DNA of 64,000 nucleotides, from contig NZ_AP018290.1 in NCBI RefSeq assembly GCF_002368415.1, forward strand, positions 10,097,717 to 10,161,716. The letters are read 5' to 3'. Numbering within the stretch: position 1 is the first letter of the stretch; each line of letters opens with the position of its first letter. Position numbers and translations under genes: made by a program. The stretch comes from Calothrix sp. NIES-4105 (GTDB lineage Bacteria > Cyanobacteriota > Cyanobacteriia > Cyanobacteriales > Nostocaceae). Below, piece after piece: positions 1,043 to 10,597 of the stretch. The notes beneath the pieces were generated by a model. That model worked only from the letters and a program-made list of their open reading frames with translations, ran no database searches and was not told the origin of the DNA.

Positions 1043-1262
1043 ATGTTTACAACTCCAATTACAGATATAAGTGCCAGTGTAAGAGATTGTGAGCCTTCTG
1101 TCACAATACCAATGACTGGTGAAGAGTATTTAGAAAGTTTACGCGACGACCGAGAGATTTGGATTTATGGTGAGCGGGTAAAAGACGTAACGCAGCATCC
1201 AGCATTTCGTAACTGCGCGCGGATGGTCGCACGGTTATACGATGCAATGCATGACTCAGATA
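1043..1262 (+). pseudogene. hpaB: 5' fragment of an HpaB-type flavin monooxygenase gene, truncated by a mobile element
   Basis: The first about 73 codons match the N-terminus of the 4-hydroxyphenylacetate 3-monooxygenase (HpaB) family: [32 protein letters not shown], then [13 protein letters not shown]2-dependent enzymes of this family are about 480-500 aa. Similarity stops after residue 73, where a hairpin typical of an IS200/IS605 end begins; the frame reads on to a stop at 1306 without homology. I found no 3' part of the gene on the other side of the mobile block, at 6920-7200. The gene therefore looks dead, with its remainder deleted or moved. Confidence 0.75.
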
Positions 1263-1295
1263 TGAACCACCCCACCGCACGGCGGATGGGGTTTC
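1262..1295. repeat. Subterminal hairpin, presumed right end of the IS605-like element
   Basis: A GC-rich stem around CCGC-ACG-GCGG with outer CCCCA / TGGGG, lying exactly where HpaB similarity stops. The shape resembles the 6890-6912 hairpin at the other edge of the block. Assignment as the IS right end is an inference from position and shape. Confidence 0.45.
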
Positions 1296-1356
1296 TAGTT
1301 TACTGACTCGGTTGGTAGAGTCGATGCCCGGTATTATCCGGGGCACCTCTCTGTTA

Positions 1357-1390
1357 GAACTGGACGTGCGCGTTTCCGTGCATCCAGCTC
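1357..1390 (-). ncRNA. Group II intron 1 domain V (catalytic hairpin)
   Basis: A 34-nt hairpin read on the minus strand starts GAGCTGGATG, has the loop CGGAAACG and closes with CACGTCCAGTTC. This is the size and form of domain V, the active-site helix of group II ribozymes. It lies just 3' of the maturase stop codon, the usual position. Confidence 0.85.
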
Positions 1391-1399
1391 CCGATATTC

Positions 1400-2341
1400 T
1401 TAGCTTGCGCTTTTGCCCATGTGTGTATAATCGTGACAGGATTCGTGTATTGCAATCAGATTATTAGGTTTCCAATTGTCGTGATTCCCGTCTATATGGT
1501 GTAAGTGTACTCGTTCTTCACTTGTAAACTTTAATCCACAGTGTCCACATGTATGGTTTTGCCTATTTAAGGCTTTAGAGGTTTCCCCGTCATAGAGCTT
1601 GCTATTACGCTCGCTCCAGTAGCTGATGTCGCCGTCGTAAGGTGATTTATTCCCTTTGACATTGACATATTTGTTTTCGGAGTAGGGAACCGATGGGAAC
1701 GCTTTTTCTATTAACTTAGTTGTAGATTCTCGCGTTAATTTCGTTTCCTTATTGAAGACTTTCCATGTCCTGTATCTGATGTGCCATAATGAAAATCTTG
1801 ACCCATCCATTTTACAGAAGCGGTGGTAGTTCCTCCAACCCCTAATAATAGGTGCTAGCTTTTGGGCTTTTACCTTTGCACCATAATTCGAGCAGTTAAC
1901 GATAGCTTTTACCTTCTGGCGGAATTTTTTATAGTTATCCGCTGAGGGAGTACTTCTAAATTTTCCGTTGCTTTGCACTTTAAAATGCCAGCCAAGGAAG
2001 TCAAATCCATCTGTCGTAGCGGTTAGTTTTGTCTTTTTCTCACTTACTTTTAATCCTCTGGCTTCTAGAAATTGGCTGATTTTTTCAAGTATTTTTGTTG
2101 CATCATCAGTGGGTTTAAGGATTATTACCATATCATCGGCATAACGTACTGATTGGTGAATTTCCTCTATTCCGTTGAGCGCAATGTTAGCTAAAAGTGG
2201 ACTCACAACGCCACCTTGACAAGTACCTTGTTCTGGAAATTCAGGGTTTACACCTGCTTTTAGACAGCGAAAAATTCCCTGTTTTATGCCTGATGGGGCA
2301 ATAAGGTTGTCCATTATTGTGGTGTGTGATATTCTATCGAA
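1400..2341 (-). pseudogene. Outer group II intron maturase, C-terminal part (RT4-RT7, domain X, HNH)
   Basis: This continues the protein begun at 4747-5226. Its first codons after intron 2 read FDRISHTTIMDNLIAP, the second half of the RT block that starts ELDIEKC. Next come GTCQGGVVSPLLANI (RT4), the catalytic VRYADDM (RT5), a GFDFLGWHF segment, the maturase domain with GWRNYHRFC, and a C-terminal HNH endonuclease (CGHCG, LHHIDGN, HESCHDYTH). The reading frame would be restored across the intron 2 insertion by splicing. The frameshift near 5227 still breaks the N-terminus, so I call the gene broken. Confidence 0.85.
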
Positions 2342-2402
2342 AGTGGGTAGCTAGCTAACGAGGTTTCCGTTTATTTGGTTCCTTTTCTAACTAGCCCCCT
2401 CC

Positions 2403-2436
2403 GAACCGTGCTTACAAGTTTCCAGGTACACGGCTC
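2403..2436 (-). ncRNA. Group II intron 2 domain V (catalytic hairpin)
   Basis: The minus strand reads GAGCCGTGTACCTGG, a GAAA loop, then ACTTGTAAGCACGGTTC: a clear domain V with the standard GAGCCGT / ACGGTTC base. It lies 15 bp after the maturase stop codon. Confidence 0.9.
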
Positions 2437-2450
2437 TCCAGTATTCTTAT

Positions 2451-4235
2451 TTACGGAACTCGTTTACCTGTTGGTTTACCTGCATGTATTGCGTCGTGGC
2501 ATTGAGAGCAGACCATGAGAGTTTTCCTTTTACGTGCGGACATAATTTGCATCCATTGCGGTAAATCCTTTCTACCCTTAATTTTGAGGTCTTTAAGGGC
2601 GCGAATATGGTGAACTTCAATGTTGCCTTTTGCCCCACAGATTTCACATTCATCCGCGAGAAGCCGCTTGATTAATTCATTTCTAGGTGCGGGTTTTCTT
2701 TGTGTTGATAAGTCTTCTATGGTTGCTTTTAGGTTACGTTTTAATTGTATTCCTCCGAAGCGAGCTACCAAGGGTTTCTTTCCCTCAACTGGGACGGTTA
2801 TTTCAACACACTTTCTTAAACCTTGTGGAAGTTTTACCGTCTTAATATAACGAGCGCAAATTTTATTCACGCTTGTCTTATGTTTACAGGCAAGGGTTTT
2901 CATCAATGAGGTTGACATAACCCATTGTAGTTTTCGGAGCCATGCAATATTTTGAGCAAGGCTATAGAATTGTACGTACCCTCTAAACTCTGATTGAAAA
3001 ATGTTGATGATAGAAAAATCATCATCATTTATTAATTCAGGACGATGAATGGGTTTACCATTCCTCATATATAAGGTACACTTTTCTTCTATAACTTTGG
3101 CTGGTATTCTTAGTGCAACAATTCCGTTAATTGAGCGTTTACCATTGGTATGCTTATCATCGGAATATTGGACTAATATTTCGTACCCCAAAAATTTTGC
3201 TGCTTCATTCCTAGCGTTAGTAATTAAGGTCTTTTCTGGCGACAATTCCAACTGAAGTTTTTCGGCTAGAAATATCTTGACTTTTTCCTTAATTGCTTCT
3301 GCTTCAGTGAATGAACCAATAAAACCAAGTAGAAAATCATCAGCATAACGGACGTAATTTAGCCTTCTGTATTCCGGGTCGCGAACGTCTTTGGATGGCA
3401 TGTGCTGGTATTTAATTTCCAGTTGACGCGCTTTCTCAAATTGTCCGTTTTTCCTGTAGTACCAGGCTAGTTTTACAAGTTTTGAGTACTCTGGATTTTC
3501 TGCCCGACATTTGCCGCGTGTATACTCTGGGATGAGTATCTGCTCGATAAATTTATCTAATTTATCAAGATAGATATTTGCGAGTATGGGTGATAAAATC
3601 GAGCCTTGCGGCGTTCCGCTAAGGGTAGAAAAATATTTCCATTGCTCGCAGTAACCTGCTTTAAGCAAGTTTTCAATTAATCTTAGGAAGCGGTTATCTT
3701 GAATTTTCTCGCGTAGGATTGACATTAAGATTTTATGGTCTATATTGTCAAAACACCCACGAATATCTCCTTCGATAAACCATTTAGTTCCTTGCCAAGT
3801 GCGGTCTATTATTGTTAATGCCGTGTGGCATCCGCGCTTGGGTCTAAAACCGTGACTGCTGTTAGAAAATTGGGGTTCGTAATACGCTTCTAATATTAAA
3901 CGTATTACTTCCTGAACCAATTTATCATTCCAAGTAGGAATACCTAAAGGTCGGGTTTTCCCATTTTTCTTAGGGATATTAATTCGTCGTACTGGTGTCC
4001 ATTGAAAACGTTCATAGCGAATATCCTCTATGAGGTCTTCAATCTTTTTAATGGACATCCCATCAACAGTCTCTGATGTAACTCCTTGCGTCATTGCCCC
4101 ATCATTTTTGTAGATACGACTATACGCGAGAAGGTACAGGTTAGGGTTGAAAAGTTGCCTGTAGATATCATCCAGAGGTAAACCACGATAACCTCTGTCT
4201 CGAATTACACTTAAAACCGTTTCGGCGTTTCGCAT
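2451..4235 (-). CDS. ltrA-like: Group II intron-encoded reverse transcriptase/maturase with HNH domain (inner intron)
   Basis: Intact 594-aa protein for splicing and retrohoming of intron 2. Visible in order: PVRRINIPKKNGKTRPLGIPT (RT1-2), SHGFRPKRGCHTAL, EGDIRGCFDNIDH (RT3), GTPQGSILSPILANIYL (RT4), the catalytic YVRYADDFLLG (RT5), ELSPEKT and KFLGYEI (RT6-7), the maturase domain X, then HNH with CEICGAKGNIEVHHIRAL and CSQCHDAIH. I place the start at the ATG at 4235 because AGAGGT precedes it at suitable distance; upstream codons are ribozyme sequence. The protein contains an extra charged segment (about residues 235-285) between RT4 and RT5. Confidence 0.92.
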   Translation of the reverse strand: MRNAETVLSVIRDRGYRGLPLDDIYRQLFNPNLYLLAYSRIYKNDGAMTQGVTSETVDGMSIKKIEDLIEDIRYERFQWTPVRRINIPKKNGKTRPLGIPTWNDKLVQEVIRLILEAYYEPQFSNSSHGFRPKRGCHTALTIIDRTWQGTKWFIEGDIRGCFDNIDHKILMSILREKIQDNRFLRLIENLLKAGYCEQWKYFSTLSGTPQGSILSPILANIYLDKLDKFIEQILIPEYTRGKCRAENPEYSKLVKLAWYYRKNGQFEKARQLEIKYQHMPSKDVRDPEYRRLNYVRYADDFLLGFIGSFTEAEAIKEKVKIFLAEKLQLELSPEKTLITNARNEAAKFLGYEILVQYSDDKHTNGKRSINGIVALRIPAKVIEEKCTLYMRNGKPIHRPELINDDDFSIINIFQSEFRGYVQFYSLAQNIAWLRKLQWVMSTSLMKTLACKHKTSVNKICARYIKTVKLPQGLRKCVEITVPVEGKKPLVARFGGIQLKRNLKATIEDLSTQRKPAPRNELIKRLLADECEICGAKGNIEVHHIRALKDLKIKGRKDLPQWMQIMSARKRKTLMVCSQCHDAIHAGKPTGKRVP

Positions 4236-4358
4236 CTCGCGTACCTCTCGATACAAGTGTTTTGGAATACCTGTTCCCCTTCGCCATGTGGGCGGCTTTC
4301 CCGTCCTCGGACTACTATGGGAACTCTGTAACCATAGGGGTCGCCCCCCGTAGGTCAT

Positions 4359-4746
4359 CCCGCGCTTTATTAACTTGGTACGTATCAGTGTGATTTAGGT
4401 GTCCCATTCATTCCTTAAGCCATCTCATCGGTGGCTGACTTCGTTTGAAGGAGTTGTATAGTTCAAATGCTTAAAACTACACACAAACGATTATTCCTTT
4501 TAGGCGTTGTAGGAATAGGCAATCGAGTATACCGTCAGAATTGGGCTTCAAGTAGTTTAACTTTCACCGTGTCACACAGGTCTTGCCGAACAATAGTTTT
4601 AACGCCTTCTCTCTATTCCCGGCTTTACCAACATGCTGTTGTCCCCTTTGTCTTTCGACTCCAGGTTAGTTGGTTGACCTAGAGACTATCTCCTTATTCT
4701 CTCCCAACTTTGGGTTGGGGATACCGTATTAACTGTCACGGCGCAC
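4359..4746 (-). ncRNA. Group II intron 2, 5' ribozyme region (domains I-III)
   Basis: The stretch between the 5' splice site at 4746 and the maturase gene has no convincing protein. It must hold domains I-III of the inner ribozyme if the intron is complete. The EBS/IBS pairings were not resolved by eye. Confidence 0.6.
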
Positions 4747-5320
4747 GCACTTCTCAATATCGAGTTCTATAACCCGTTTGTTGATTCCTTTTGCTTGGGA
4801 GTTTAGGTTATGAAATAGGACTTTTTGGGCATCATGTGCCGAGCGTCCGGCTCTAAACCCGTAGCTTTTTTCGTGGAATGTTGCTTCGTGTGCTGGTTCT
4901 AAAGCATATTTAGCGAGGCATTGCCAACACCTATCTGCAATAGTTGGAATTTTTAGCATCCTATTGCTACCGTCTTTCTTAGGAATTGGGATTGCACGTA
5001 ACCCTTGGTGTTTCCAATTGTTACTGGATGTTTTTAGCAGTTCTTCAAGTTCAAAGCGCTCTTTAAAATTGAGGGCTTTTTTACCATCAATACCTGCCGT
5101 TTTTTTACCAGCGTTTAGCTGTGTTACTTGACGGATAGCCAAGAATCTAGCCGCTTTGGACTTCAGAATAAGTTTTTGCAAAGACATTGCTTTACGCTTG
5201 TCTCCTGCTTGAACCGCTTTAAACACTCTATGAGTGTAGGCGGAATAAATCGCGGCGGAATTTCTTCCACGGTAATTTTATCCAAGATTCACTAGTATTG
5301 CTACTGTGCCCAATCATACT
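4747..5320 (-). pseudogene. Outer group II intron maturase, N-terminal part (RT0-RT3), frameshifted
   Basis: The segment 4747-5226 encodes VFKAVQAGDKRKAMSLQKL, a GIDGKKAL block, IPIPKKDGSNRMLKIPT (RT1-2), SYGFRAGRSAHDA and ELDIEKC. There intron 2 interrupts it. The residues that normally precede, WIKLPWKKFRRDLFRLHS, lie just upstream in another frame (5228-5290), ending at a TAG; one extra base near 5227 explains this. The protein is therefore split by both a frameshift and an intron. Its C-terminal part is at 1400-2341. Confidence 0.83.
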
Positions 5321-5863
5321 CTTCTCCATTAAGTGTTTTCTGAATACCTTGCAGCAATTACGCCGCATCCTATCCGAATCAAAAGATTTCCGTACCTCGT
5401 CATACCTACCTGAAGTTCGACCTCTCCAAGACTTTTGACTCGTTTTTCTTCGTTCCAAGAGATGATTGATTGTTCCGTTAGGAAGTGCCAATTTAACCAT
5501 CAGACCCCCAGGTTCTTACCGCTGTTTCACTGAGACGCGGCAGGGATTCACTCTGATGAAGTCGGGTTCAAAGGATATGTCCCGCTTTAGGATAGGTTAC
5601 TTTTATAGGCATCTGTTTTTCCATAGGAACCCCCCGTTAGCGCCAGTGTCCACCCATAACGGTAGTCTGATTGCGCCCTGTTCCCAGCTTCAGCCTCCGA
5701 AAACCGAGTTCGGTCATTGTGGGCAGGTAGGGAGTCAAGCATGAACCTTGCTGGTGGGACTTTCACCCACATCAGTCTCTTAGTTCAAGGTTACTTTAGG
5801 TGTTCACCTTGGGTAGCTTATGTACGGGCTGATTACCGTGATTCAGCCACCAACGAATCGCAC
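5320..5863 (-). ncRNA. Group II intron 1, 5' ribozyme region
   Basis: Sequence between the 5' splice site GTGCGATTCG at 5863 and the start of the outer maturase. It contains the GTGGGTGAAAGTCCCACCAG segment typical of domain I in bacterial introns of this kind. Overlapping frames on both strands have no recognisable protein. Confidence 0.6.
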
Positions 5864-5928
5864 CAGTAAGTCCTATAGTCGTGCAACAAGACAAGCTTGT
5901 AGCCGTACCTTTACTTTTAGACAGTTTT

Positions 5929-6485
5929 TTACAAGCGCCAAATATTAATTTTTTTGAGAACTTGACACACTTTGTAACTTATTTTAGACGTGTCAATTTT
6001 TGCCTTTCTCAAAATATTGGATGCACCCTGAGCATCAGCGTTGATAACTGTTTTGTTACCTGTTTTGTATTCCCCGCGTCTTGTTCTTTTCCCAGAAGGC
6101 TTAAGATTCTTCTGTTCTTCGGTTTCTTTGCCGTATACGGGTAATTCATCACCATCAAAAAATGACATTTTTGAGGTGTAGGATTCTTCTACAACCACAA
6201 ATTCTAGACCATGTCTTTCACACAGATATTTAAGCGTGTCACGTAATGCAGTGAATGGAACCTGCACAAAATTCTGGTTATTTACACGTCCGTTATCTAT
6301 CTCGTTTTTTATTCCTTCATTCCAACCAAATACAATTTTACCTATTTTTGATTCTAGGCATTTGTTGATTATGGTGCGTGCTGACTTCTTTATAAAATCA
6401 CGTACTTGGTTGTTTCTGGATTGTGTTGCTCTTGCTAAACTCCCACTCCAGAAATTCTCATCCTTACCCTTTTTTAGCTTGGATA
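5929..6485 (-). pseudogene. tnpB: IS605-type TnpB, C-terminal part
   Basis: RNA-guided TnpB nuclease fragment. It keeps RNNQVRDFIKK, KIVFGWNEGIK, NNQNFVQVPF, the RuvC-II segment VVVEESYTSK with catalytic Glu, and NADAQGASNILRK with the RuvC-III Asp. The first half, including the RuvC-I Asp and the guide-RNA binding region, is missing. The zinc-finger cysteines expected between RuvC-II and RuvC-III are also lacking: that stretch reads TSKMSFFDGDELP. The frame runs on past 6485 into reversed tnpA sequence, showing an internal deletion that removed both 5' ends. Not functional. Confidence 0.85.
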
Positions 6486-6489
6486 CAGT

Positions 6490-6843
6490 TGTGACTAAGT
6501 ATAGGCGTAAGGTATTTACACAACAAATGATTGATGATATGAAGGAAGTGTTTATGCGAGTTTTAGAGTCAAATAACTCTAAATTAGAGGATTGCAATGG
6601 CGAACCAGACCATGTACATTTACTAATTGACTTACATCCAGATAATAATATTTCTGATTTGATAGCATCCCTAAAATCAGCAAGCAGTAGAATATTTAGA
6701 GAAAAATATAAATCTACAATTGATAAATACTATTGGGGTAAAGCTAAACTTTGGCATGATTCAAAATGTATTGTATCTTGTGGAGGTGCCCCACTAGAAA
6801 CGGTAAAACAGTATATTCAAAATCAATCAGGTGGGAGAGAGTA
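6490..6843 (+). pseudogene. tnpA: IS200/IS605 Y1 transposase TnpA, 5'-truncated
   Basis: HUH single-strand transposase lacking only its first residues. VVTKYRRKVFTQQM begins the match, followed by NGEPDHVHLLID with the HUH motif (HVH), SSRIFREKY, YYWGKAKLW and CGGAPLETVKQYIQNQ, which holds the catalytic Tyr and the partner Gln. Codons upstream belong to the reversed tnpB fragment, so the normal start and first beta strand are lost. The gene lies head to head with tnpB, as in IS605-type elements, with the deletion between them. Confidence 0.85.
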
Positions 6844-6845
6844 AA

Positions 6846-6915
6846 AAGACGGAGCATCGAACCCCGTCTTTTTACGCGAAGCACCATCCCCACCCGCTCC
6901 GAGGGTGGGGAATTC
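6846..6915. repeat. Two hairpins at the presumed left end of the IS605-like element
   Basis: Stem AAAAAGACGG / CCGTCTTTTT at 6844-6873 could also terminate tnpA transcription. A second stem CCCCACCC / GGGTGGGG lies at 6890-6912. The second resembles the hairpin at 1267-1290 and probably marks the other end of the element. The rest up to 7207 shows no gene; the first GGCGCC after the block is at 7027. Confidence 0.55.
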
Positions 6916-7207
6916 CGCGAATGTGTTAAAAATTTGGTCTTAGCGTTTAGCCATGAGCCGACAATAAAAAATATTTTGGTTCTTTTGCGAAATTGCGCTC
7001 TTAATTATTAACTAAGCAGTATCAGGCGCCACTTACCAAAATATTACAAAGTGTAACAATATTGCTTAAAGAAGGAATAATCAACCTTGGCACCATCGTG
7101 TATAAGTAGGTGCATTATCAAGTTAAAAAAATTATCGATTTTTTGGACATGACGCTTTAGAATTCTTAATGAATTTTAAATTTTATATGCGACAGTAGGT
7201 ATATTGC

Positions 7208-8539
7208 ATGAGCATCAAGAGTACACCTAGAGCCAACTATCGAGAGTTTTTCAACCCAAAGCCAGTAAAAATACTTTTTGCTGTCGCTTTGAGCTTACCT
7301 GTGTTTTTACTTACTTATGCACTACTTACACAACCTTTGGGACGTTTGGCGGTTAGTCCACAACAATGCCAGTTGAAAAAGTGGGCTTTACCTCAAGCTG
7401 CTGGGCAACCTAAAAGTCAACCAGGTATATCAAGGCGCCCGGTACTTGTAGCTAGACCACATATTACTTGTTGCGAAGGTGATAATTCGTGTTTGGATAA
7501 TCAAATTTGGGGTGAAAACGAACCTATCAAAGACTCTATTGGTTTAATAGCATCGATAGACCAGAGCTTAAAGTACTTACAAACTCCTTCTTCTGAAGCA
7601 GCATATAAAGATTATCCTGTCGCTGGTATCACGCGCGCTCGTGTAATTGCTAGCTTGCAGCGGTTTCGACAGTTAGTACAGAAAAGTTCCGCAGCTAAAG
7701 AACTTAATGCAGCAGTTGCGCGCGAGTTTGTGCTTTACCAGTCGATAGGTAACGATAAAAAAGGAGGGGTACTATTTACTTCATATTACGAACCTATATA
7801 TGAAGCTAGTCGTACACGTACTGCTGAATTTCGTTACCCTATTTATCGTGAACCACCTGACTTAGACTCGTGGCCAAGACCTCATCCTAAACGTGTTGAC
7901 TTAGAAGGTGCAGATGGTTTGCAAGCTTCTAAAAGTAAATTGCGGGGATTAGAAATATTTTGGTTCCGCGACCGTTTGGAACCTTATATGATGCAAATTC
8001 AAGGTTCGGCAAGACTTCAACTTACTGATGGTAGCGAAACTACGGTGGGTTATGCCGCTAGCATCGCTCAAAATTATAAAAGCATTGGTAAAGCACTTGC
8101 CGATGATGGAAAATTACCCTTAGAGGGTATGACAATGCCAAAGATTTTGGATTATTTTCATAAATACACACAGGAATTAAATGTCTATATTCCGCGTGAC
8201 CCTAGCTTTGTATTTTTTAAAGAAAATTATGGTGTTACTGCAACTGGTTCTACTCAAGCTACGCTTACTACCGACCGTTCGATTGCTACTGACAAATCAC
8301 TTATGCCACCAGGTGCCTTAGCATTGATTCGCGCGTATCTTCCTTTTCCTAACACTCAAGGTCAAATGGAACACCGTGTTGTCAGTCGCTATGTACTCGA
8401 CCAAGACGCTGGTGGCGCCATTAAGGGTGCTGGTAGAGTTGATTACTTTGTCGGTGCAGGTAAGGTTGCAGCCGAACGTGCGGGTGTTACTGTTGGTCGA
8501 GGACAATTATTTTATTTAATGCTTAAACCAAAAAGTTAA
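7208..8539 (+). CDS. mltA: Membrane-bound lytic murein transglycosylase A
   Basis: Peptidoglycan-cleaving transglycosylase that forms 1,6-anhydro ends, 443 aa. Residues 19-42 form a hydrophobic N-terminal signal or anchor (ILFAVALSLPVFLLTYALL). The MltA barrel is visible from about residue 165: GVLFTSYYEPIYEAS, FRYPIYREP, FWFRDRLEPYMMQIQGSARL and YAASIAQNYKSIGKAL. The C-terminal 3D domain carries YVLDQDAGGAIKGAGRVDYFVG; its aspartates include the presumed catalytic one. Length and domain order match other cyanobacterial MltA proteins. It stands alone, transcribed away from the mobile block. Confidence 0.93.
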   Translation: MSIKSTPRANYREFFNPKPVKILFAVALSLPVFLLTYALLTQPLGRLAVSPQQCQLKKWALPQAAGQPKSQPGISRRPVLVARPHITCCEGDNSCLDNQIWGENEPIKDSIGLIASIDQSLKYLQTPSSEAAYKDYPVAGITRARVIASLQRFRQLVQKSSAAKELNAAVAREFVLYQSIGNDKKGGVLFTSYYEPIYEASRTRTAEFRYPIYREPPDLDSWPRPHPKRVDLEGADGLQASKSKLRGLEIFWFRDRLEPYMMQIQGSARLQLTDGSETTVGYAASIAQNYKSIGKALADDGKLPLEGMTMPKILDYFHKYTQELNVYIPRDPSFVFFKENYGVTATGSTQATLTTDRSIATDKSLMPPGALALIRAYLPFPNTQGQMEHRVVSRYVLDQDAGGAIKGAGRVDYFVGAGKVAAERAGVTVGRGQLFYLMLKPKS

Positions 8540-8920
8540 GTAACAAATCAAACATTATTATTACTATAAACAATGTCTGATATATTCCTTCACACTTTTG
8601 TTAATATCTAACTGCATAAAAACTTTGGCTAGACATAATTATTATTGTCAATTTCGGAACCGAGGGAAATATCCTTCGTCGTTCCAAACTAGCATCAGTA
8701 AATTTAAAGTGAGCCTGGGAGCATTATTACTGTTGCTACTATTGACAAAAGTCAATAAATATGTAGATGCTTGGATTTGAAAAAATAGGCACCATTCTGA
8801 AATAACTTCTCTTGGATTTGTATATAAATTGCATGTAGGAATGCGGAAATGCATTGATAAACGCCAATGCTTTCATAGACATAATAAACGTATTTAGTTT
8901 TTCAATCGGGGGATTTAACA
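8540..8920. other. Intergenic region without recognised gene
   Basis: About 380 bp between mltA and the PIN gene. A 60-codon frame at 8598-8780 ends in a short leucine run but has no ribosome-binding site or homology I recognise. No clear hairpin or repeat was seen. Confidence 0.4.
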
Positions 8921-9367
8921 GTGATTGGGATATTAATTGATGCTGATTTAATACTTGAAGTATTGATGAACAGAAACCTGCTATTAGAAGATATAAGTGG
9001 ATTATTTGACCAAGCGCAACCCTTGATAAAAATGTATGTTACAGATTTTGGCTGGGAGAAAATATGCGCTTATGCAAGTAGATTTCAAAATTCACAAATA
9101 GCTCAAGTTGTGATTGATTGGTTGAAAGAAAAAATAGATGTTTGTGCTGTTGATAAAAATGTTCTTCACCAAGCTCGTTTATCACCAATTCAAGATTTTG
9201 AATCTGCTGTTGAATATACGTGTGCAATGTATCAAGAATTCTACGCAGTCGTAACTCATCGATACCAAGATTTTGTCACGGCACCTAACAAGTTTGCAAT
9301 TTGGTCTGTTTCTGACCTACAAATGCGAACATCACTTGAGGCACAGTTTCATACGACTGTCAATTAA
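8921..9367 (+). CDS. PIN-like domain protein
   Basis: 148-aa protein with the outline of a PIN ribonuclease. It has an N-terminal ILIDADLILEVLMNR with the first acidic residues, a central Glu/Asp helix, DFESAVEYTCA with the second acidic pair, then AVVTHRYQDF, the usual fourth strand ending in Asp. The GTG start at 8921 is preceded by GGGGGA. PIN proteins are often VapC-type toxins, but no small antitoxin gene lies next to it, so this may be one of the solitary cyanobacterial PIN proteins. Cytosolic; target unknown. Confidence 0.65.
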   Translation: MIGILIDADLILEVLMNRNLLLEDISGLFDQAQPLIKMYVTDFGWEKICAYASRFQNSQIAQVVIDWLKEKIDVCAVDKNVLHQARLSPIQDFESAVEYTCAMYQEFYAVVTHRYQDFVTAPNKFAIWSVSDLQMRTSLEAQFHTTVN

Positions 9368-9458
9368 GCGCGCAACTTAAAGATATTCTTGCTTGCTCCG
9401 GGACTTATCCCGGAATAAAATAGTTGGAATGCCTTGTGTGACAAGGGTTGTGGAAAAT

Positions 9459-10191: not shown

Positions 10192-10223
10192 AAGCTTGTC
10201 TCCTGATGTGTGATTGTTTTGAA

Positions 10224-10574
10224 TTAGCTACAAATGGTTGTAGTACTTCTTGTATAAATTTGATTGCCACCTCTTGTGGAGTTACTGCGCTGTGTAACAT
10301 TGCGGCATTTCATTTGATTATTGACTTTTACTGCGCGCGTCCGACGATTTGTATTGATTCTATTGATTCTATTGATTCTATTGATTCTATTGACAGCCGG
10401 ATTTACAATTACTGGTGATACAGGCGCCGTTCTTATAAAAATGTCGCCATCCTCATCCAGGAACATTTGAACATTACTTGTTTGAATATTTAATTCACTA
10501 GCGTTTGCGTTAACAGCAGGTAATGTAACCATTGCTGTCAGGAAGAGCGAAAACATTAATATTCTTTTAGGCAT
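10224..10574 (-). CDS. Small secreted protein with Arg-Ile-Asn repeats
   Basis: 116 aa from the ATG at 10574, chosen because TGAGGA lies 8 bases upstream. The signal peptide MPKRILMFSLFLTAMVTLPAVNANAS is clear. The mature part contains four to five copies of the tripeptide RIN, encoded by the perfect 9-bp tandem repeat at 10354-10393, in a basic, Asn-rich stretch. Near the C-terminus are two cysteines (MKCRN and TTICS). Function unknown. The repeat tract could change copy number by slippage without breaking the frame. Confidence 0.6.
   Translation of the reverse strand: MPKRILMFSLFLTAMVTLPAVNANASELNIQTSNVQMFLDEDGDIFIRTAPVSPVIVNPAVNRINRINRINRINTNRRTRAVKVNNQMKCRNVTQRSNSTRGGNQIYTRSTTTICS
10354..10395. 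repeat. 9-bp tandem repeat ATTGATTCT, about 4.5 copies
   Basis: Four exact copies plus a partial one, within the secreted-protein gene at 10224-10574. The unit length is a multiple of 3, so each copy adds RIN to the protein. Confidence 0.9.
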
Positions 10575-10597
10575 GGCGTTCATCCTCAACTTATAAA

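Follow-up and report, generated by a model that had tools for sequence, protein, structure and literature searches.

How does a group II intron come to lie in the reverse transcriptase (RT) gene of a second group II intron, itself lodged in the end of a transposable element? The question is raised by a locus of Calothrix sp. NIES-4105, within a stretch of 64,000 nucleotides (contig NZ_AP018290.1, positions 10,097,717 to 10,161,716) that was analysed as a whole and is called the window below. Here an inner intron (intron 2) is nested in the RT gene of an outer intron (intron 1), and intron 1 lies within an IS200/IS605 remnant, at its right end. The first-pass annotation of the window had proposed this nesting, and it is borne out by domain V–VI ends matching RF00029, by the IS ends and by empty sites. 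The sequence comparisons indicate that intron 2 is very probably a mobile group II intron homing to the RT genes of other group II introns. Loci outside the window are designated by L numbers.

Structure, empty sites and copies of the two introns

Intron 2 (4746..2342, minus strand) is 2405 nt long. It begins with GTGCGCC at 4746, in agreement with the GUGYG consensus, and ends in CACT, one base past AY, as do those of its relatives that have a readable 3′ end. Its domain V–VI (2342..2438, minus strand) scores 51.9 bits with RF00029. When 4746..2342 is cut out, RVIELDIEKC is joined to FDRISHT in a single open frame, and the RT3 motif of the intron-1 maturase is restored, exactly as had been predicted from these limits; for the RT motif numbers, the names of exon- and intron-binding sites (EBS, IBS) and the intron classes we follow common usage. 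The maturase gene of intron 2 (2451..4235, minus strand) is intact and encodes, according to Pfam, an RT, Intron_maturas2 and AI2M-like HNH domains (RVT_1, Intron_maturas2 and AI2M-like_HNH all score over their cut-offs). TIGR04416 yields 285.5 bits, under its cut-off of 300. The protein comprises 594 aa from an inner ATG, in a reading frame open to 4358, and the database cluster with the same sequence (P0001) likewise has 594 aa.

Intron 1 (5863..1314, minus strand) measures 4550 nt with intron 2 and 2145 nt without it, and is delimited by a 5′ GTGCG, by its domain V–VI (1315..1392, minus strand; RF00029 52.7 bits, cut-off 40) and by empty sites. The limits first given for it, 1315-5863, were correct to one base. 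The empty IS ends L031, L032, L034 and L035 read ACTG|AACC, while the window and L012 have an extra C before AACC; judged by the empty sites, which lack this C, intron 1 extends to 1314, a single base beyond the end of the Rfam match at 1315. The maturase gene of intron 1 is split by intron 2 into a 3′ part (1400..2341, minus strand; RVT_1 1.4e-17, GIIM 1.5e-08) and a 5′ part (4747..5500, minus strand; RVT_N 1.8e-20 and RVT_1 9.7e-11 for 4747-5226). A Pfam search with the stretch 5231-5500 gave no match. Without intron 2 the RT3 motif is whole again, yet the maturase is not, since a second lesion, a one-base frameshift, lies near 5230, outside intron 2. L012 is identical at this position, whereas the maturase N-terminus is open in the outer intron of L014. 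Intron 1 therefore lacks an intact intron-encoded protein (IEP), although its ribozyme ends and EBS1–IBS1 pairing are present. In two loci of Scytonema tolypothrichoides (L041 at 4708/5294, L043 at 5023-5403), the 5′ end of the outer intron is repeated partially in tandem.

One group II intron lies wholly inside another, with the frame restored across RT3 and with empty sites in existence, and the pair constitutes a group II twintron. The intron-1 site is empty, with both flanks contiguous, in L034, an IS605-derived repeat elsewhere in the genome. The intron-2 site (GAAAAATGC/TTYGAT) is empty in four of six related plasmid loci (L129, L130, L132 and L133); L131 has no match to the search word, and in L134 RT3 holds another intron. 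This last one, on a plasmid of Nostoc sp. C057, is a different group II intron inserted at 1725, 6 bp upstream of the intron-2 site. An order of arrival IS605, intron 1, intron 2, suggested at the outset, agrees with the existence of empty sites for each of the two introns.

Covariation was observed in both ribozymes using RNAalifold: 144 consensus pairs, 85 of them with double changes, in the first 560 nt of 11 introns of the intron-1 family, and 101 pairs, 53 with double changes, in the first 520 nt of 13 introns belonging to the intron-2 clade or related to it. In the window, EBS1 of intron 1 (CAGUGA; 5532..5527, minus strand) forms six of six pairs with IBS1 TTACTG at 5864-5869, and EBS1 of intron 2 (GCAUUU; 4465..4470, minus strand) six of six with IBS1 AAGTGC at 4747-4752, each with one wobble. 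The EBS–IBS pairing that had been recommended as a check for both insertion points is thus seen, for EBS1, at each.

In the host genome (12.04 Mb in 8 contigs) all 39 candidates for intron 2 were scored, and four of them match it. Each of these copies is 2405 nt long and located at AAGTGC|TTCGAT, and they differ by 0-1 single-nucleotide polymorphism (SNP). The sole SNP, at position 1192 of the intron, is T in the window and L013 and C in L012 and L014. The outer introns of the four copies represent three distinct sequences, that of L012 being the same as intron 1 of the window and those of L013 and L014 being about 71-74% like it. When the 3′ half of intron 1 was used as a DNA query, five intron-1-like places were detected in this genome, four of which contain intron 2; in the fifth, L015, the match is limited to the last ~600 nt. 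It is because near-identical copies recur that we infer retrohoming of intron 2.

The genome contains at least 14 domain V–VI matches (150 of 581 candidates scored). In L013 (105-kb contig C4, reverse complement 1623-9394), an outer intron A carries a further intron, B, at YGFRPG|RS in addition to intron 2 at EKC|FD, and leaves a 580-residue open stretch when both are subtracted. A second copy of intron B, in L124 (C1:4690500-4700500), occupies FGFRPG|RS of another outer RT; intron B would be a second intron of this genome homing to an RT motif.

Insertion sites of intron 2 and its relatives

Loci of the intron-2 clade were collected from a scan of genome contigs, which gave ten, and from a protein search at E <= 1e-120. 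Loci in both collections with the same flanks were counted once and a Fischerella fragment whose ends are absent (L049) was excluded, giving 26 insertion places of the close group. An RT3 flank is found in 25 of these. The RT3 codons (KC|FD) are present on both sides in 15 places and on the only readable side in six (5′ in L046 and L099; 3′ in L047, L050, L051 and L098). At least two kinds of outer protein have been invaded, recognizable by ELDIEKC and DADIAKC.

Related introns occupy other core sites of group II introns. A second lineage is inserted at RYADD|F in four places, read on both sides in L083 and L084, on the 5′ side in L052 and on the 3′ side in L089. A third was met in eight places, all of them in apical domain V of other group II introns. 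Both halves of domain V were read in six of them (L085, L086, L068, L088 and the second introns of L090 and L091); in L087, an insertion within domain V of an intron-2 relative, the 5′ half alone was read, and L140, on a Microvirga plasmid, is assigned from two half sequences alone. With the cut placed at the AC end that the introns share, domain V is 34 nt long after rejoining in five of the six cases, and in L085 the intron must be one base longer. The domain VI that follows the insertion resembles that of the intron-1 family in four of the six (L085, L086, L068 and L088). A pattern search for the 5′ half of domain V joined to an intron 5′ end found none in 386 cyanobacterial genomes; the known domain-V genomes being outside this draw, the result shows only that such insertions are rare.

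In a protein tree of 38 rows, 11 RT3 rows group with L044 (95/90), seven domain-V rows form a group (93/92) and so do three YADD rows (100/100). Between these groups lie introns in IS5-like frames as well as proteins whose context is unknown, and the three habits therefore do not make up one exclusive clade. Proteins with 61-82% identity are also present in other phyla. Six more distant relatives, all on plasmids and picked among the 40 listed of 573 records, served as controls. In three of them (L135, L136 and L137, on Streptomyces and Rhodococcus plasmids) the intron starts immediately behind a ...VER-type stretch of a frame resembling a transposase, and this stretch seems to be a conserved transposase motif; the frame is annotated as IS5 in L135 and L137 but has no annotation in L136. 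The putative intron start in L138 is just after domain V–VI of another group II intron, L139 is in an unannotated stretch, and the sixth is L140, the domain-V insertion named above. These cases indicate that homing to genes of mobile elements is a wider habit of these introns.

The EBS1 sequence varies with the target across the relatives of intron 2. Alignment columns were scanned for base pairing with the six nucleotides that precede each intron, with shuffled exons as control; the exon-pairing tests were limited to EBS1–IBS1, and the shuffle statistics take no account of relatedness among introns. In the intron-1 family the best column makes 73 of 78 pairs in 13 rows (the window and L012 are the same intron) and the next best 44, and none of 1000 exon shuffles reaches 73, the highest giving 55. 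The L012 exon, TCACTG, is the exact complement of the intron-1 EBS1, with which the empty sites form five of six pairs (L034) or four of six (L031, L032 and L035). For the intron-2 set, 68 of 78 pairs were obtained with one column of slack, a score reached in 1/1000 shuffles; with hand-placed six-mers in 14 rows, the figures are 74 of 84 pairs and 1/100,000 shuffles.

Group II introns move as ribonucleoproteins (RNPs), by reverse splicing, a second-strand cut by HNH and copying by the RT. In the explanation that we favour, EBS1–IBS1 pairing would guide the intron-2 RNP and the intron would reverse-splice into the RT3 codons (K-C|F-D) of the RT genes of other group II introns; the HNH domain of its protein would then cut the other strand and the RT would copy the intron. 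Intron 1, which has another protein type, may have homed first into the IS200/IS605 right end, at the 3′ end of tnpB, and intron 2 would have invaded subsequently. If both introns splice, intron 2 would leave first, so that the intron-1 frame runs across RT3, and intron 1 would then leave the IS transcript; a protein acting in trans may serve intron 1. The insert being in the ORF of domain IV, intron 1 may splice with or without intron 2, whereas in the domain-V relatives the outer intron would be expected to splice only once the inner one has left.

Several observations weigh against homing of this kind. The RT3 flank is clean on one of two sides in four of the 26 places (L090, L091, L092 and L101), and L044 is inserted in an IS110-type transposase (PF02371), which indicates that RT3 is no absolute requirement. 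Four RT3 sites of other introns of the same genome are uninvaded (those of intron B in L013, L124, L125 and L126). Protein relatives of intron 2 (E <= 1e-120) were detected in 20 of 217 genomes of the host family, with up to five candidates scored per genome, and in none of the six genomes listed for the window's own genus; its DNA was found in only 3 of 386 cyanobacterial genomes, with two candidates scored per genome. When the exact column is required, EBS1 of the intron-2 set makes 54 of 78 pairs, a score reached in 7/1000 shuffles. Within the six domain-V rows, the idea that each intron fits its own target better than those of its neighbours failed, the EBS1 match being not above chance (66/720 permutations). 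Splicing, retrohoming and the order in which the introns are removed are, moreover, what we infer from sequence.

On balance, we lean towards the broader view that intron 2 and its kin are a radiation of group II introns hyperparasitic on group II introns, each lineage being aimed through EBS1 at an essential, conserved part of its victim: the RT3 codons, the YADD codons or apical domain V. The victim's protein or ribozyme would in that case be out of action for as long as the parasite is not spliced out, and mutation would offer the target no easy escape.

The IS200/IS605 setting and rival explanations

The IS200/IS605 remnant (1262-6931) has both hairpin ends. The right end with its subterminal hairpin, which is also the 3′ exon of intron 1 (1262..1313, minus strand), aligns with the right ends of L012, L031, L032, L034 and L035, and the left end (6875..6931, minus strand) matches those of L012, L031, L034 and L035. 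The hairpins, at first noted merely as resembling IS ends, are thus identified by alignment with the ends of related IS copies. On the minus strand, the remnant comprises a C-terminal tnpB fragment (5929..6597; PF07282 2.5e-07, TIGR01766 2e-17, NF040570 2.7e-25 but under the NF040570 cut-off) and, divergent from it, a Y1 transposase gene, tnpA, without its N-terminus (6490..6844, plus strand; PF01797 3.5e-33 from profile position 12, NF033573 2.7e-31). TnpA, TnpB and both ends are recognized, and we speak of a remnant since both proteins are without their N-terminal parts.

Next to the right end is a 5′ stub of hpaB of about 73 codons (1043..1261, plus strand), containing the start of HpaB_N (PF11794 1.9e-18; TIGR02310 1.7e-23, far under its cut-off). 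It covers the first ~52 profile positions of HpaB_N. The first-pass annotation had placed the IS within hpaB; the stub does stop at the IS end, but it is only a remnant. PF03241, the C-terminal domain of HpaB, has no match in the genome assembly (4 of 14 control genomes have one), and the rest of hpaB therefore seems to be gone. An IS interrupting an otherwise present hpaB was set aside for this reason. Elsewhere in the window, at 10206-10589, open reading frames overlapping on opposite strands encode the short repeats DSIDSIDSI and NRINRINRIN.

The explanation that survives best beside homing is that the outer intron is a relic, no longer moved by its own protein and possibly unable to splice. 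We regard this as almost evenly balanced. The frameshift near 5230, identical in L012, speaks for it, as do the loss of the N-termini from the IS proteins and the proximity of the hpaB stub; the ribozyme ends, EBS1/IBS1 pairing and domain V–VI of intron 1 are nonetheless intact, and a frameshift shared by two identical copies implies that copying was recent, perhaps by a protein in trans such as that of L014, whose N-terminus is open.

Somewhat more doubtful, though a serious possibility, is copying of the twintron as a single 4.5-kb unit between IS605-type elements, by composite retrohoming or gene conversion, with no separate homing of intron 2 at this locus. The identity of the outer introns of the window and L012 in spite of their differing IS flanks is what such copying would produce. 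The SNP at 1192, however, pairs the window with L013 and L012 with L014, as separate insertion or conversion would, though this is a single SNP; and the outer introns of L013 and L014 differ, so that intron 2 must have moved or been converted separately at least there.

The same two loci bear on how intron 1 itself arrived. Its sequence is the same in the window and L012 but the flanking IS is different, with six differences (counted by eye) across the 53-nt 5′ exon, and the 659 nt left of the intron in L012 showed no tnpB frame. This points to homing to one of the two sites at least rather than carriage by the IS, and most likely intron 1 reached either the window or L012 in this way; carriage by IS transposition was set aside, given two identical copies in different IS bodies. 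For the same reason it is very unlikely that intron 1 is a group II counterpart of the IStrons, its splicing silencing IS605 insertions and IS transposition spreading the intron. Intron 1 does have the same sense as tnpB and lies ~52 nt in from the right end, its site corresponding to the last codons of the open tnpB frame of L031 (477 aa), and its second copy is at the same place of another IS605-type element (L012); but its 5′ splice site is inside the IS, and splicing cannot free a host gene of the IS. An assembly or annotation artefact is extremely improbable: long identical repeats are liable to misassembly, but the copies, on contigs of 11.06 Mb and 105 kb, differ in their flanks, and other public assemblies show the same RT3 junction.

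L012, L034 and L035, IS605-type elements with no visible tnpB, have ~300 nt beside the right end in common (88% identity between L012 and L034, 83% between L012 and L035). The shared stretch could be a conserved non-coding RNA. Separately, a role in the TnpB guide RNA is conceivable here, such RNAs ending at the right end of their element.

Comparison with known nested introns

Nested homing of group II introns was previously known from a few genomes. Here the members of one clade, spread over several genera of cyanobacteria, invade differing outer introns at an unchanged victim motif, and relatives with a different EBS1 are at other core sites. Such natural pairs allow target switching of retroelements, and the evolution of one parasite on another, to be put to the test. 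They also supply natural introns directed at RT motifs and at domain V, and have a bearing on how sequential splicing is maintained in nested introns. The literature consulted describes no family of bacterial introns that homes to RT3, YADD or domain V; the insertion sites of Dai and Zimmerly 2003 were not compared.

In Methanosarcina acetivorans, group II introns home site-specifically into group II introns, up to five being nested (Dai and Zimmerly 2003, as told in PMC4424553 and PMC2882425). That case concerns one archaeal genome, whereas ours involves one clade that targets a conserved RT motif in several genera of cyanobacteria, with outer RTs of more than one type and with related lineages at other core sites. 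In the case of the Thermosynechococcus elongatus F3 and F4 introns, identical inner introns devoid of an open reading frame (ORF) lie at one conserved site in diverged outer introns (Mohr 2010, PMC2882425), and other introns are inserted at a conserved site of an IS200-family element (PMC2882425). Both features are reminiscent of the window. The inner introns there are, however, situated between two start codons of the outer RT, whereas intron 2 has an RT of its own and interrupts the catalytic core of the outer RT.

The Trichodesmium twintron is also a cyanobacterial group II twintron with an IEP-bearing inner intron, and its sequential splicing has been demonstrated (PMC4649490); it resides in a conserved protein gene, the one described here in a transposon end. 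In the mat1f twintrons of the Porphyridium plastid, one IEP-bearing inner intron occupies the same site of two outer introns 78% alike (PMC4476101), much as intron 2 does in different outers, but the outer IEPs there are truncated remnants and the inner intron is also found alone in atpB. The IStrons resemble our locus in associating an intron with an IS200/IS605 element; their introns are of group I and stand at the element's 5′ end, so that the insertion is self-splicing (PMC4227781), whereas intron 1 belongs to group II and has a 5′ splice site that lies within the IS, and the locus is not an IStron. In the Euglena psbF twintron, finally, a group II intron is inserted in domain V of another (PMC8393795), as in the domain-V lineage of intron-2 relatives, although the former is a chloroplast case and the latter are bacterial introns with their own RT in eight places. 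Nested homing, in Methanosarcina, Thermosynechococcus and Porphyridium, and domain-V insertion, in Euglena, thus have precedents; what looks new in the clade of intron 2 is homing to a conserved motif combined with target switching.

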